IMG/VR virus record: IMGVR_UViG_3300025286_000122
Location: 1 to 26,140 of that record
Length of the DNA: 26,140 nucleotides
Direction: 5' to 3' (one strand)
Source of the DNA: a virus
A program made the translations under genes and the position numbers. The notes beneath the pieces are model-generated. The model made no database searches. It worked only from the letters and a program-made list of their open reading frames with translations, and was not told where the DNA came from. Within the stretch, counting starts at the first letter, position 1. Each line of letters starts with the position of its first letter. This document shows, in pieces, positions 14,016-26,140 of this stretch.

Positions 14016-14888
14016 CTAAGAAGTAGGTGCGGTCGCGTCTGATACGATTTCGTGAACCCATTGGTTCTGCCGTATGCCGTATGCGTATGAGTCGGTGTGG
14101 GTAATGATTGTGGACCCGCCACCAGTCCTGGGCTTACGCTCAGTCTCCATCCTTGGACTCATGTCTTGGACCAATACGATGCCGTCCTTGGCGAAGACGC
14201 CAGCCTTGGCATCGTCAGACGAGTCTATAGTAAGGTCGCCGTTCTCGTAGGCTTGGGCGGTGTTGATCATGCCCTTGAAGCCCTCCCGGAAGACACGGAA
14301 ACTCGCACCCTCGGATATGTCGTAGGTGCCCACGGGAGCAGTGAACTGATCGTAGATGTCCTTCACCTGGAAGGGATGAGCTACGAAACGAATTGGCTGG
14401 TGCCCCGGCTCGGTCGTGTTCCCCGTGATGTTTGATACCCCTGCCGCCACTAAGCCGAAGGTCATAGCGCTGCCCGTGGAGCCGAGTTGAGTGGAGCCGG
14501 TGGCGTCGATAGTAGTCAGGCCGTCGATGTTCTTCTTGCGCTGCATGGCGTTCTGCCCCAGCCGACCAATCTCCCTCAAGCCGTTCTTGGTAATGTTACG
14601 CCCTACTTTGTCCGTGAGCATGGTGGCGATCTGTACCATCGTCGGCTTGATACTGAAGTCGGTGTCTGATACCTGCTGGATATTGTCGTTCTCAGTGGTC
14701 TCATTCACCGCCATTGCGGTCAGCTTGGCATATGAGACCTCATGCCAGGTATCTCCCATCCCTTTGCCTAGGGTGCGTCGCTCCACAAGCCCAGGCATGT
14801 CTCCTTCCTGCTCACGAGTGACGCGAGCGGAACTGATAATGGTCGGCAGTGAAGCGTCTAGTTGACTGGTAACTGTGGGTTGGGCCAT
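14016..14888 (-). CDS. major capsid protein
   Basis: A 290-residue protein directly downstream of a scaffold-like gene, the standard order for a phage capsid operon. It begins with a segment of the kind found in capsid N-terminal arms (QPTVTSQLDASLPTIISSAR, then EGDMPGLVERRTLGKGMGD). It continues with a long helical part (NITKNGLREIGRLGQNAMQR, residues about 98-117) and beta segments such as QPIRFVAHPFQVKDIYDQF and AYGIRQNQWVHEIV. Length and organisation fit an HK97-fold capsid subunit without a fused scaffold or protease. Sequence identity to a specific family cannot be asserted from memory, so the call rests on gene order and overall pattern. Its start lies six bases after the scaffold stop. 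Confidence 0.75.
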   Translation of the reverse strand: MAQPTVTSQLDASLPTIISSARVTREQEGDMPGLVERRTLGKGMGDTWHEVSYAKLTAMAVNETTENDNIQQVSDTDFSIKPTMVQIATMLTDKVGRNITKNGLREIGRLGQNAMQRKKNIDGLTTIDATGSTQLGSTGSAMTFGLVAAGVSNITGNTTEPGHQPIRFVAHPFQVKDIYDQFTAPVGTYDISEGASFRVFREGFKGMINTAQAYENGDLTIDSSDDAKAGVFAKDGIVLVQDMSPRMETERKPRTGGGSTIITHTDSYAYGIRQNQWVHEIVSDATAPTS

Positions 14889-21778: not shown

Positions 21779-23676
21779 TAGAGACCTCCTGGTACTCCGT
21801 TCTGTCCGAACTGTCCGAATCTACCCGGCCTTGGGGTTCCTGGGGGCACTAGTGGCCCTATTTGCCCAGGCCCCATCTGAGGCGGCACGCCTATTGTAGC
21901 ATTGGGTGCAACCCTGGGGTCAAACCGAGGCGGTCCGGCGGGAGTGCCAACACCCCCTCCTCCTCTGTTACCCCCAGGAGCACCACCGGGTGCGCCTCCA
22001 GGTGCGGCACCGGCCTTAGCCTGGGCCAGACCTGCTGCCTGCATCTGCAATATCTGTAGCTCTGCAAACTCCTTGAGCATGGCCTTTTGGGCCTCGCCGA
22101 ACCAGACCATTGCAAGCTGCTCGTCTCCAGAGTTGATCGCGGCCAGCATCATGTCGTGGGCGGCCGCTACCTCAGAGGCCCGACGCGCCCTCTGCTCCAG
22201 CACCGCGTCGCCAACCCTATCTGCGTCTTGGAGCCTGAGCCACTTCTCCCTTATAGTCCGATAGTCTACCAGCGGCTCCCCGTCGGAACCGGGCTCGCTC
22301 AACTGTATAGCCATGGCGATTGCCTGTACGTCGTCTTGAGGCAGCTCTGGCGTAATGGTGATGTCGGGGTCTCCGCCGTCGCGAACGACCTCGGGCGGTA
22401 CGACCTGGTTAAACGGCGTCCTCTCTCCGGTCTGCTCTCTACCGCTAACGGTCATCTCTTTGAACGCGCCCGATCCGTACTGGGCACGAAGCGCCCGAGT
22501 GATCTGCACATAGGCGGCCTTCTTTGCCGCAACGGGGCCTTCTATAGGGGTCTGCTGGCCCTGTCGAAGCTGGCCTATCGCAAAGCCTGATATTGGGTCC
22601 TGTATGGTGCCGAACGAGGACCAGGGGATACCGCCGCGCTGGACCTGTCCTGCCAGTTCTCCGACCTGTAATCCGGCCTCCTGGGCCATCCTCAGAGAGT
22701 CGAGGACTATAATCTCAGCCCCTTCGGGCAACGATATACCGGTAGTGCCGCCTTCGGTTAGCCACGGGTTTTCGTCCAGGGTAAGCGTGCCGTCGGGGGA
22801 CTTGATAACGTAGGGTATCTTTAGGCTTCTGGACATGAACTCGGATCGGATCGACTGTGTAAAGGCCATTTCGTTATAGACGCCGCGATTGGACTGGTAG
22901 ATCGACTCGCCCCAGTCCTTAATAGTGTCCTGGTCTGAGGAGCTATGTATAAGGGGGTTTGGGCCGACGGCCCCAAAGAAGCAGGGGAACTCTGGGGAGC
23001 CGTGTGGTGTGGGCTTTTTATAGGCTTTGGTATCGACGACTATCCCGGTATGCTCGTCGTCGTACCACTCTATGACGGGGGTCTTGTCCCTGCCGTCGTC
23101 GTTGTGGGAGTCTTTTGTGACGGTAATGCCGAACTCGTTCTTGATCTGCCGCGAGGTGCGCCAGGTCTTATGTGCAAACCACGTAAGGCCCTTGGCCCCG
23201 AACTCCCAGTAGCAGTTACGGGGGTCCCACGGGTGGATATTGGGAGTTCCCGGCTCGAAGATAGAGTCGTCCTTGGTCAGCAGGTTACGGCCCGCATAGA
23301 ATCCCCGAATGGCGATATACCAGGAGAGCGATTCGTCGAGAGTGCTCATCCCCATGCGGGTCAGGCGCTCGTCGTTAGCGGAGAGCACTCCTATATAAAA
23401 GCGCTCGGCGGCGTTCCTTATATCGCGTTGGTCTCTCGTCTGGTCGATCTGGTTGATCTGCATGAGCAGCTTGGCCGTCGTGAGCAGCGATATGATCTTA
23501 TTCGCCTGGGTACGGGCCTCGTTCGGGGTATACTTCCTGAATCCAGCGAGTTCCTCACTGGCATACGGGGCCAAGCGCCACAGGTCGTAGTCTTCGTCCA
23601 TGCGTTGCCGCAGCGAAGAGGTCTGCTCAGCTTGCTCGTCGACCATGTCGACAATGTCAGCCGCTTTACGTCTCAT
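21778..23676 (-). CDS. portal protein
   Basis: A 632-residue protein in the position of a phage portal: it overlaps the terminase stop codon by four bases (ATGA). The first 500 residues are a large alpha/beta domain: MDEDYDLWRLAPYASEELAG, the helix QANKIISLLTTAKLLMQINQ, FYIGVLSANDERLTRMGMST, HPWDPRNCYWEFGAKGLTWF, then ESIYQSNRGVYNEMAFTQSI and a GQVQRGGIPWSSF segment. Residues about 557-632 form a Gly/Pro-rich flexible tail (GGAPGGAPGGNRGGGG). Portals form a dodecameric ring at the capsid vertex through which DNA enters and leaves. The family assignment rests on order, length and the overall pattern rather than a unique motif. The long disordered tail is unusual and may face the capsid interior. 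Confidence 0.8.
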   Translation of the reverse strand: MRRKAADIVDMVDEQAEQTSSLRQRMDEDYDLWRLAPYASEELAGFRKYTPNEARTQANKIISLLTTAKLLMQINQIDQTRDQRDIRNAAERFYIGVLSANDERLTRMGMSTLDESLSWYIAIRGFYAGRNLLTKDDSIFEPGTPNIHPWDPRNCYWEFGAKGLTWFAHKTWRTSRQIKNEFGITVTKDSHNDDGRDKTPVIEWYDDEHTGIVVDTKAYKKPTPHGSPEFPCFFGAVGPNPLIHSSSDQDTIKDWGESIYQSNRGVYNEMAFTQSIRSEFMSRSLKIPYVIKSPDGTLTLDENPWLTEGGTTGISLPEGAEIIVLDSLRMAQEAGLQVGELAGQVQRGGIPWSSFGTIQDPISGFAIGQLRQGQQTPIEGPVAAKKAAYVQITRALRAQYGSGAFKEMTVSGREQTGERTPFNQVVPPEVVRDGGDPDITITPELPQDDVQAIAMAIQLSEPGSDGEPLVDYRTIREKWLRLQDADRVGDAVLEQRARRASEVAAAHDMMLAAINSGDEQLAMVWFGEAQKAMLKEFAELQILQMQAAGLAQAKAGAAPGGAPGGAPGGNRGGGGVGTPAGPPRFDPRVAPNATIGVPPQMGPGQIGPLVPPGTPRPGRFGQFGQNGVPGGL

Positions 23677-25169
23677 TTGTGCCTCGTAACGATCGCCTTC
23701 CGATTTCGCTTATCATAACCGTAACCGAACTCACCTACAAGGAAGTACGTAGTAGCTTTAGTGCCGTCGTTGTTCTTTTCCTCGGGTATTTGGCCGTAAA
23801 CTGCCCCTTGTCGGTCGGTTTTCCACCTATACGGCCTAATTTTGCCGTCTAGCGGGTTCGGAGCGGCCCCAAAGTTGCTCAAGAGCCCCTTTTGGCACGA
23901 GTGGAAGACGATTTTAGGCATTTTGGAGACCGGATCGTCTCCGAGGAAGCTTTTTAGGCGTTCGTTACCGGGCATAACGGGAATCCGGTGGTTCGGGCCG
24001 GCGACCAGTCCCGTTTCGCGGTTCCAGACCTCTGCGACAGAGGACATCGAGTGATGTTGGTCCTTGTAATGGGGGTCTGAGTAGAGGAATTTAGGGCTTT
24101 TCCACCACGGCTTCCTCATGGCGATGTTGATTATGTCTTCGGTGATCTTCCCGTGCTCGAATATCTCGTCTATGCCGCGTACCTGCTCGTAGGACTGCCC
24201 CGTCGCGGTATAGTCGGTAACGATCTGATAGATTTCGAGGGCATGTGCGTGGGCCAGCTCTGAGCCATAGCCAGGGTCTTCGGCAATATAGACGGGTAAG
24301 GCGGGGTTATAGACGTTGTCTCGGACGTGTTTAGAGGCGTCGAACTCGTGGAAGACCAGGCCGCGCGGGGGAACGGGCTTCCCCTCGATCCGTTCTAGGA
24401 ACCATTCGTCGGACTGCTCGATCTTGGCGGCCTGAATCTTCGGGTCGTCTATACCGCCTGGATAGAGGTAGTGGTTAGAGTAAGAGGGGAGTATGAAGCT
24501 AGCCTTGTTATCGACGCCGGCGGCCCAGGCAGTAGCCATCTGGGAGAACCAGATGCCAACGCCACGTTCCATGGTGCCGGGTATAAAGAGCCAGCCGTCC
24601 ATGGGGGCCACACGGCCGCGACAGCGCTCGAAGACCTCGAACTCCATCTGTGCCGCCTCGCACAGGATGATCCCGTTAGGCGACTCTTTAGAGAGCTTGG
24701 TAATATCCGTGGCGGACTTGGTCTCTATTCGAAGGGCAGCTTTACGATCGGGTTTACCCAGATCGCTGACGTGTCGAAGTTCAATATATCCAGGGTCGAT
24801 CCTCTTGGACTTATCGATCTTAGCGGTCGGGAACAGCGTATAGAGGTCGTCGAGTATGTACTCGAACTCTTTTTGGGTCTCGCCGTAGGCTGCGGCAACA
24901 AGCCAGTATAGGTGTGGGTCCCCAACGCCGTCCCCGCGTTCTGGCCGACGGCCCTGGTCTAACGCCCACTCGACCTGGAACTTGGAGGCGGCTACCCTGC
25001 TCTTTCCGCCCTGCTCCCCTCCGGTTACGGCTATATACTTAGCCTTTGAGCGCATTATGGCGGGCTGATAGACATTATGCCCGCCCTGTGTCGGGTCGTA
25101 ACCTATCCGCTCGAATATTCCGTCTGCCAGAGGGGATATGACGGCCTTGGAGAGCGTCTGAGTCGCCAT
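23673..25169 (-). CDS. terL: large terminase subunit (packaging ATPase/nuclease)
   Basis: A 498-residue protein with the expected motor and nuclease motifs. Walker A-like GGEQGGKSR is at 50-58, Walker B-like IILCEAAQ at 167-174 with Glu171 as the likely catalytic base, and the following GWLFIPGTM at 192-200 is in the place of the coupling motif. The nuclease half has Asp298 in YIAEDPG, IDEIFEHG at 333-340 and YSDPHYKDQ at 363-371, which supply the acidic residues expected of the RNase H-like nuclease. The enzyme drives DNA into the capsid and cuts it. No small terminase subunit is seen next to it. The start is preceded by an extended -10 promoter only seven bases away, with no Shine-Dalgarno, so the mRNA may be leaderless. 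Confidence 0.9.
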   Translation of the reverse strand: MATQTLSKAVISPLADGIFERIGYDPTQGGHNVYQPAIMRSKAKYIAVTGGEQGGKSRVAASKFQVEWALDQGRRPERGDGVGDPHLYWLVAAAYGETQKEFEYILDDLYTLFPTAKIDKSKRIDPGYIELRHVSDLGKPDRKAALRIETKSATDITKLSKESPNGIILCEAAQMEFEVFERCRGRVAPMDGWLFIPGTMERGVGIWFSQMATAWAAGVDNKASFILPSYSNHYLYPGGIDDPKIQAAKIEQSDEWFLERIEGKPVPPRGLVFHEFDASKHVRDNVYNPALPVYIAEDPGYGSELAHAHALEIYQIVTDYTATGQSYEQVRGIDEIFEHGKITEDIINIAMRKPWWKSPKFLYSDPHYKDQHHSMSSVAEVWNRETGLVAGPNHRIPVMPGNERLKSFLGDDPVSKMPKIVFHSCQKGLLSNFGAAPNPLDGKIRPYRWKTDRQGAVYGQIPEEKNNDGTKATTYFLVGEFGYGYDKRNRKAIVTRHK

Positions 25170-25176
25170 AAAGCCG

Positions 25177-25185
25177 ATTATACCA
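25177..25185 (-). promoter_or_regulatory. extended -10 promoter for terminase operon
   Basis: On the minus strand 25185-25177 reads TGGTATAAT, a perfect extended -10 element. The -35 position is not conserved, as is usual for this promoter class. Predicted transcription starts about 25170, one base before the terminase ATG at 25169. Confidence 0.6.
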
Positions 25186-25249
25186 CGTCAAAACAAGACC
25201 CCACTGGCACCAGTTTCGCCCAACCACGAAAGATCAGCAATGAGATAGA

Positions 25250-25271
25250 GGGGGGCATTGACATGCCCCCC
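25250..25271. promoter_or_regulatory. perfect 9-bp inverted repeat in divergent promoter region
   Basis: GGGGGGCAT (25250-25258) and ATGCCCCCC (25263-25271) are perfect inverted copies around a four-base centre. The repeat lies directly upstream of the plus-strand -10 box at 25274-25279, where a -35 or operator would be. It could be a repressor or activator site or a terminator; there is no T tract beyond CTTAT. Confidence 0.55.
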
Positions 25272-25273
25272 CT

Positions 25274-25279
25274 TATAAT
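25274..25279 (+). promoter_or_regulatory. -10 box for plus-strand zinc-ribbon gene
   Basis: TATAAT at 25274-25279, with no recognisable -35 at 17 bases (the inverted repeat occupies that place). A TTGACA at 25258-25263 is only ten bases away and cannot pair with it. Transcription would start near 25286, twelve bases before the ATG at 25298. Confidence 0.45.
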
Positions 25280-25297
25280 GGTAGATTACTGGGTAAC

Positions 25298-25588
25298 ATG
25301 GGAATCACGAACACGTTACAGCGGGTACGGCTATTCAGCTGCGAGCAATGCGGGCACAAATGGAGCCCACGGGTCTCGGACGAGTCTCGCACGTTAAAGG
25401 ATGGCAGCATCAGTCCAGAGCCTCAACAGTGTTCGCGGTGTCGATCACCGTACTGGAACGATCCCAGCCATGAGCAGGGCACCCCTCTCTACGATCGACA
25501 AGGTCGTCCTTTAGAGTCTATAATGAGGGGGCGTAGGCGCAGCCCAAACGGCCATAAAAAGGAGTCTACAGATGCCAAAAGTAGGTAA
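25298..25588 (+). CDS. zinc-ribbon protein
   Basis: A 96-residue protein with FSCEQCGHKWSPR (Cys15, Cys18) and QQCSRCRSPYWNDP (Cys45, Cys48). This is the common zinc-ribbon layout CxxCGHxWxPR then CxxCxSPYWxxP known from many phage and prokaryotic small proteins. The C-terminal third is basic (MRGRRRSPNGHKKES) and could contact nucleic acid. The ATG at 25298 has only a weak GGG upstream, twelve bases after the predicted transcription start. It overlaps the lysine-rich microprotein gene by 17 bases. It diverges from the terminase operon and may regulate it, but that is inference. Confidence 0.7.
   Translation: MGITNTLQRVRLFSCEQCGHKWSPRVSDESRTLKDGSISPEPQQCSRCRSPYWNDPSHEQGTPLYDRQGRPLESIMRGRRRSPNGHKKESTDAKSR
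25495..25524 (+). promoter_or_regulatory. sigma70-type promoter for microprotein and downstream RNA
   Basis: TCGACA at 25495-25500 (five of six matches to the -35 consensus), an 18-base spacer and a perfect TATAAT at 25519-25524. It lies inside the 3' part of the zinc-ribbon gene. Transcription would begin near 25531, 41 bases before the microprotein start, and would run into the structured noncoding stretch. Confidence 0.55.
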
Positions 25589-25676
25589 GAAGAAGTTTCC
25601 CTACACCCAAAAGGGGAAACTAGCCGCCTCTGCGTACGCCAAGAAGACCAAGCAGGGGACCAAGACGAAAAAATAA
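25572..25676 (+). CDS. lysine-rich microprotein (MPKVGKKKFPYT type), 34 aa
   Basis: A 34-residue protein: MPKVGKKKFPYT, then a short Ala/Leu stretch, ending in AYAKKTKQGTKTKK. Twelve of 34 residues are lysine. AAAAAGGAG lies nine bases before the ATG, a strong binding site. I recall near-identical lysine-rich microproteins starting PKVGKKKFPYT in environmental phages, often near the terminase, with no known function. Its charge suggests DNA or RNA binding, perhaps in packaging. It is overlapped by the zinc-ribbon gene and followed by the structured noncoding stretch. Confidence 0.75.
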   Translation: MPKVGKKKFPYTQKGKLAASAYAKKTKQGTKTKK

Positions 25677-25683
25677 CCAAATA

Positions 25684-25914
25684 ACATACGGTAGCATCGT
25701 CGCCTCAGACTTAAACGTCGGGGAGAGACGTTCTCCAGGGTTGCTACCTGGAGTAAGAGGTACCGATAGGTCGTAGCTTTGTTGTGTCCGCTGGTGAAAG
25801 TAATGGACACCGCGCGAACCAGCGCGCGCCCACCTAGTGGGAAAATACGTGAGGGGGAAATAAATCGGAGGGTGCTGATTAAGGGGAACCCCCTACCCCA
25901 AAACCGACGCCCCC
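25684..25914 (+). ncRNA. candidate structured noncoding RNA (multi-hairpin)
   Basis: The 316 bases between 25677 and 25992 hold no convincing gene. Within them, hairpins follow one another: 25714-25719/25727-25732 and 25733-25739/25747-25753 with no spacer, then 25784-25789/25805-25810, 25811-25816/25823-25828 and 25829-25833/25837-25841, again with no spacers. A larger stem pairs 25853-25857 with 25910-25914 and 25865-25868 with 25904-25907, enclosing a small GGGG/CCCC hairpin near 25883-25893. The loop of the second hairpin (25742-25746) is complementary to 25692-25696, and the loop of the third (25791-25795) to the loop of the fourth (25818-25822). The strand is inferred from the upstream promoter. 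The remainder (25915-25992) is C-rich and then leads into a ribosome binding site. It could instead be a packaging or replication site. Confidence 0.45.
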
Positions 25915-25992
25915 AACTAAACCCAATCCACTACCACCCCAAAGACTAGCCGATACCGCTGAACAACCCTAGACGATATGGAGGAAGGCCCA

Positions 25993-26140
25993 ATGCCAGA
26001 CCAGCTCTTGCTAACCGTTGAGGAGGCTGCCGGTAGGCTTTCAATCGGGCGGAGCCGACTTTACCAGCTACTCAATGATGGGATGCTCGAATCCTTGCAA
26101 TTAGGCCGGAGTCGCCGCATTCCGGCCTATGCCCTCGAGG
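25993..26140 (+). CDS. excisionase-type helix-turn-helix protein (partial)
   Basis: The first 49 residues of a protein that continues past the window end. LLTVEEAAGRLSIGRSRLYQ is a helix-turn-helix of the MerR/excisionase (HTH_17) type, followed by LNDGMLESLQLGRSRRIPAY, where GRSRRIP is the usual wing. GGAGGAAGG precedes the ATG at 25993. Such proteins act as excisionases, repressors or small DNA-binding partners. It directly follows the structured noncoding stretch, so it may bind there. No integrase is visible in the window, so a temperate lifestyle cannot be concluded. Confidence 0.8.
   Translation, partial: MPDQLLLTVEEAAGRLSIGRSRLYQLLNDGMLESLQLGRSRRIPAYALE

Follow-up and report, generated by a model that had tools for sequence, protein, structure and literature searches.

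Abutting hairpins in a non-coding gap between co-directional genes of a virus contig, tentatively an untranslated spacer

A gap of 316 nt in a virus contig carries two chains of hairpins that abut without linkers and is tentatively read as a structured untranslated spacer between co-directional phage genes of one rightward transcription unit, perhaps acting in cis, a reading held with less than even confidence. The window analyzed is the whole 26,140-base contig (IMGVR_UViG_3300025286_000122, positions 1 to 26,140). The gap, taken as non-coding from the translations and the gap list, occupies positions 25677 to 25992 of the + strand and includes the element (25684 to 25914) singled out in the initial annotation. 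Stops are present in all three forward frames, and the sole ORF in the reverse frames is antisense to the neighboring 34-aa gene; no reading frame in the gap is convincing.

Genes on the − strand, including that of the terminase large subunit (23673-25169; phrog_2), occupy the window between about 2 kb and 25.2 kb. Judged by its position and conservation, the product of one of them (14016-14888) is taken as the capsid protein. The + strand then carries a zinc-finger-like gene (25298-25588) and the gene for a 34-aa basic peptide (25572-25676), an ORF that starts MPKVGKKKFPYT, has AGGAG upstream and matches phrog_33179 (PHROG E value of 7.7e-05). Beyond the gap begins the gene for a small HTH_17 (excisionase/BldC-like) DNA-binding protein (25993-26140; phrog_1877), which runs off the contig; the Pfam HTH_17 match (3.3e-10) comes from the longer copy of this gene in a second record, L001. 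The 34-aa and HTH_17 genes flanking the gap are thus both on the + strand. A proposed tie between the element and MPKVGKKKFPYT-type genes did not hold, as an open frame usually follows almost at once in more than 100 other copies (a pattern scan for MPKVGKKKFPYT gave at least 120 stretches, and the next frame was judged by eye over the first 60 bases). Because the next open frame elsewhere mostly begins near its stop, the 34-aa gene, which by sequence appears to be a widespread phage gene, is not a marker of the element. In L013, the nearest relative, the small and large terminase genes have a similar small gene between them, in the same orientation.

Sequence reading and a hairpin scan both bore out the two groups of abutting hairpins described in the initial annotation, all on the + strand. 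The first consists of hairpin A (25714-25732; AACGTC-GGGGAGA-GACGTT, stem of 6 bp, loop of 7 nt) and hairpin B (25733-25753; CTCCAGG-GTTGCTA-CCTGGAG, 7 bp, loop of 7 nt). The second consists of hairpin 1 (25784-25810; GTGTCCG-13 nt-TGGACAC, 6 to 7 bp, loop of 13 nt), hairpin 2 (25811-25828; CGCGCG-AACCAG-CGCGCG) and hairpin 3 (25829-25841; CCCAC-CTA-GTGGG, 5 bp, loop of 3 nt). A weaker long-range stem with internal loops spans 25853-25914 (25853-25868 with 25904-25914) at a pair probability of about 0.6. Both suggested loop complementarities can be read directly. In the loop of hairpin B, TGCTA (25742-25746) can pair with TAGCA at 25692-25696, a possible pseudoknot partner; opening the top of the stem would lengthen this contact to 7 bp (GGTAGCA/TGCTACC). 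The whole upstream sequence was available to this loop for a match. CTGGT in the loop of hairpin 1 (25791-25795) is complementary to ACCAG in the loop of hairpin 2 (25818-25822). Taken alone, this second match is weak evidence, because 5-bp Watson-Crick matches between the loops of abutting hairpins occur in 17 of 356 real viral pairs (4.8%) versus 3 of 205 pairs in shuffled sequence.

A sigma-70-like promoter reading toward the element was found at 25495-25524 (+ strand), as had been claimed; TCGACA-18-TATAAT agrees with 11 of 12 consensus positions, a consensus match only. Two such sites were found on the scanned stretch, compared with 0.5 expected by chance. The promoter probably belongs to the 34-aa gene, and the consensus scan gave no other match between the element and the HTH_17 gene. 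No intrinsic terminator (G+C-rich stem followed by a U-run) was found on the + strand of 25100-26140, and a single weak site was found on its − strand. With transcription predicted to start at about 25531, the hairpins lie approximately 160 to 310 nt downstream.

An untranslated spacer is the simplest account because the gap lacks a frame, lies between co-directional genes with a good promoter match upstream and has neither its own promoter match nor a + strand terminator. The order would be the promoter at 25495, the 34-aa gene, the spacer and the HTH_17 gene, in one rightward unit. RNA from this promoter would fold cotranscriptionally into hairpins B, 2 and 3, together with hairpin 1 and, at times, hairpin A. 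If it acts at all, the spacer would do so in cis: it would delimit the small-gene message at its 3′ end or protect that end, and it may set the amount of RNA polymerase or message arriving at the HTH_17 gene. Transcription of the spacer, its role in cis and any antitermination are what we infer from this arrangement. The promoter score, the co-directional genes, the closed forward frames, the robust stems and the rarity of such chains in shuffled sequence count for the spacer; average fold energy, the lack of demonstrated conservation among the relatives searched and the reliance of the promoter scan on consensus matches count against it.

Folding energy is average for the composition and not exceptional in the window. 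The element is predicted to fold at −81.9 kcal/mol versus a shuffle mean of −75.7 kcal/mol (z score of −1.23), and 21 of 200 shuffles were as stable or more so. In 160-nt windows over the element, z scores were about −0.6 to −2.4, compared with values down to −5.4 elsewhere in the window. The energy model has no pseudoknots, and these figures thus describe the structure without the proposed loop contacts. Hairpins B, 2 and 3 stay robust whichever flanks are chosen, the pair probability of hairpin B being 0.88 to 1.0 across all flanks tested. Hairpin A (−5.9 kcal/mol) competes with an alternative hairpin at 25698-25730 (−10.8 kcal/mol), and its pair probability varies with the flanks between about 0.14 and 0.84. 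Folding the entire gap lowers that of hairpin 1 to about 0.27.

The most stable fold sampled in the window is at 241-400 (z scores of −5.4 on the + strand and −4.6 on the − strand). A hairpin of about 20 bp (AACGAAGCCCCAGGTTA...TAACCTGGGGCTTCGTT; 313-358) is found here, within a 517-nt stretch that has no called gene and precedes a Mom-like DNA modification protein gene (518-985; phrog_1384, E value of 2e-37; Pfam Mom below cut-off). Two diverged copies of TGCACGATCCT...GCGCTGTGG (62-125 and 385-465), perhaps a duplicated small cysteine-containing gene, flank this hairpin. By its sequence, the Mom-like gene suggests that the viral DNA is modified.

Ordinary intergenic sequence with fortuitous or neutral hairpins is somewhat unlikely in its own right but nearly as likely as an untranslated spacer. 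The pattern came to notice in a reader's search of 26 kb for features of this type, and the average fold energy, the absence of conservation and the two further 5-bp loop matches in the same window (among the 17 viral pairs) all fit a neutral origin. Scores for chains, which count only hairpins that touch without any linker, are 43.0 for 25784-25841 and 30.5 for 25714-25753. A score of 43 was reached in 6 of 10,000 dinucleotide shuffles of the gap, and no shuffle contained both chains, which argues against chance. In 1.26 Mb of fetched viral sequence, however, 21 chains scored at least 43 (about one per 60 kb) and a second chain of at least 30 lay within 150 nt in six cases; at these rates, a window of 26 kb is expected to contain about 0.4 such chains and about 0.1 close pairs. 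The abutting chains therefore exceed chance relative to shuffles and are less rare in real viral sequence, and the two-chain pattern is uncommon but not astonishing, given the reader's freedom of choice. Also against a neutral origin, phage genomes are typically compact, and the 316-nt gap is one of only three gaps of >300 nt between genes taken as real in the window.

The only other copy of the element found is in L001 (IMGVR_UViG_3300009418_003597), which represents the same virus, with 2 mismatches over 6,800 bases and none near the element, and adds 32 bases; being identical over the element, it is uninformative on covariation. Terminase alignment gave 52 IMG/VR loci, with full-length matches 37 to 57% identical, the same virus apart; upstream sequence was comparable in 44 loci, L001 included, and apart from L001 none shared upstream sequence with the element. 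No match to the element was found in the searched contigs of capsid relatives (77 to 82% identical), and it was shared by none of the relatives of the zinc-ribbon and HTH proteins. A covariance model, insensitive because built from a single sequence, retrieved nothing from 517 kb at E values up to 10, and blastn against phages and plasmids, including 50,697 phage records, gave chance matches only. No terminase or capsid relative was found in the collections of bacterial and archaeal genomes, which thus gave no host and no prophage context. Lack of conservation, set beforehand as a finding that would refute a structured RNA, leans against one, in that distant relatives (37 to 57% terminase identity) share nothing and the covariance model was empty; this absence is weak evidence because none of these relatives is close.

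Candidate homologues did not hold up. A scan of IMG/VR for both kissing loops with variable spacing found, besides the same virus, one unrelated match (L186), which lies inside a coding frame without hairpin flanks and is regarded as a chance match. Hairpins in L048 and L017 have a similar abutting layout but no shared sequence, and no matching loop-loop contact was seen in them. The L017 hairpin region has a fold z score of 0.0, and a non-coding gap in L013 one of −0.84.

It is improbable that the gap is a DNA site whose inverted repeats are bound by a phage protein, e.g., the HTH_17 protein (as an operator or in recombination or replication), or serve in packaging. The HTH_17 gene is directly downstream, and several terminase relatives have non-coding DNA rich in inverted repeats upstream of the terminase gene, including TCTTAAGA palindrome arrays (L050-L052 and L061), long inverted repeats (L033, L035 and L041) and three abutting hairpins (L048). 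The element, however, is not at the small/large terminase position, unlike in relatives, and its stems differ in sequence from each other and share no repeated half-site. In addition, ARAGORN found no tRNA or tmRNA genes, a tRNA-like attachment site was not seen, and the window genes scanned included none recognizable as an integrase or replication gene.

The TCTTAAGA palindromes of L050-L052 and L061 overlap, form abutting hairpins and lie roughly 0.8 to 1 kb upstream of the terminase gene. L033/L034, L035 and L041 have inverted repeats based on GCGGATTAGGCGGATT upstream of the large terminase gene; these repeats differ between closely related phages, part of the motif is also present in L052, and they are possibly mobile palindromic elements. 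A conserved non-coding motif, AAGCCATACCCCC (often TAAGCCATACCCCCTCTTACT), precedes the large terminase gene in five divergent lineages of phage (L008:805-817, L013:2165-2177, L017:1298-1310, L025:826-838 and L040:1251-1263, all on the − strand) and is absent from the window. The motif lies about 155 nt past the small terminase gene in L013, about 50 nt past it in L017 and 25 nt past a short unassigned ORF in L008, and is a candidate packaging site or late promoter.

Less probable still is a discrete structured RNA that belongs to an undescribed class, contains kissing loops or pseudoknots and acts in trans. The earlier proposal of a structured RNA of an unmatched class stands insofar as the stems can form and none of 4,227 Rfam families matched at gathering score; up to an E value of 10, the best subthreshold hit (E value of 0.11) was a weak, unrelated 25-nt plant-virus pseudoknot. 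The average stability counts against the proposal. The loop complementarities are compatible with the stems, and hairpins B, 2 and 3 are robust; against this, IMG/VR yielded no second independent sequence with both loops, the L186 match being coding and without a hairpin, and the covariance model was empty. With no homologue found, a new class is unsupported but not refuted.

With HK022 put RNA the gap shares a likeness of layout alone. The put RNA of phage HK022 (putL/putR) is an antiterminator RNA of two stem-loops that measures about 70 nt; putR lies some 270 nt downstream of where its transcript starts, and the two long stems of put contact RNA polymerase and suppress pausing and termination (PMC9378689). 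The gap would resemble put in having neighboring stem-loops in untranslated early phage RNA, about 160 to 310 nt from the predicted start. Its pairs of abutting stem-loops lie downstream of a promoter-like site, the first stem of the pair being ambiguous. No sequence resemblance to put was found. The element has no significant nucleotide match in the 50,697 phage records, and the negative Rfam result bears on put only if a put model is included. GOLLD, ROOL and OLE are also structured non-coding RNAs, some of them phage borne, with many helices and tertiary contacts (PMC12286853, PMC2864571). They are several hundred nucleotides long and conserved across many genomes with covariation, whereas the element is about 160 to 230 nt long, is known from one virus and has no Rfam match. 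Structured intergenic or untranslated regions of phage operons likewise have hairpins that follow a promoter and separate co-directional genes, but those of the gap abut with no linker, and a + strand U-tract terminator is lacking. That the gap might encode a new phage RNA class of about 160 nt, built from a pair of coaxially stacked hairpin groups that are each held by a loop-loop or pseudoknot contact, and acting like put on RNA polymerase or mRNA in a virus for which no cultured relative was found, is very unlikely.

At present the element amounts to a single non-coding gap, seen in one virus and without a known homologue. It serves mainly as a warning, as abutting hairpins with 5-bp loop matches recur elsewhere in the same genome. 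Should it prove to be a compact RNA whose own loops kiss, the small set of structured phage RNAs would gain a class and, perhaps, phage transcription another protein-free mode of control.
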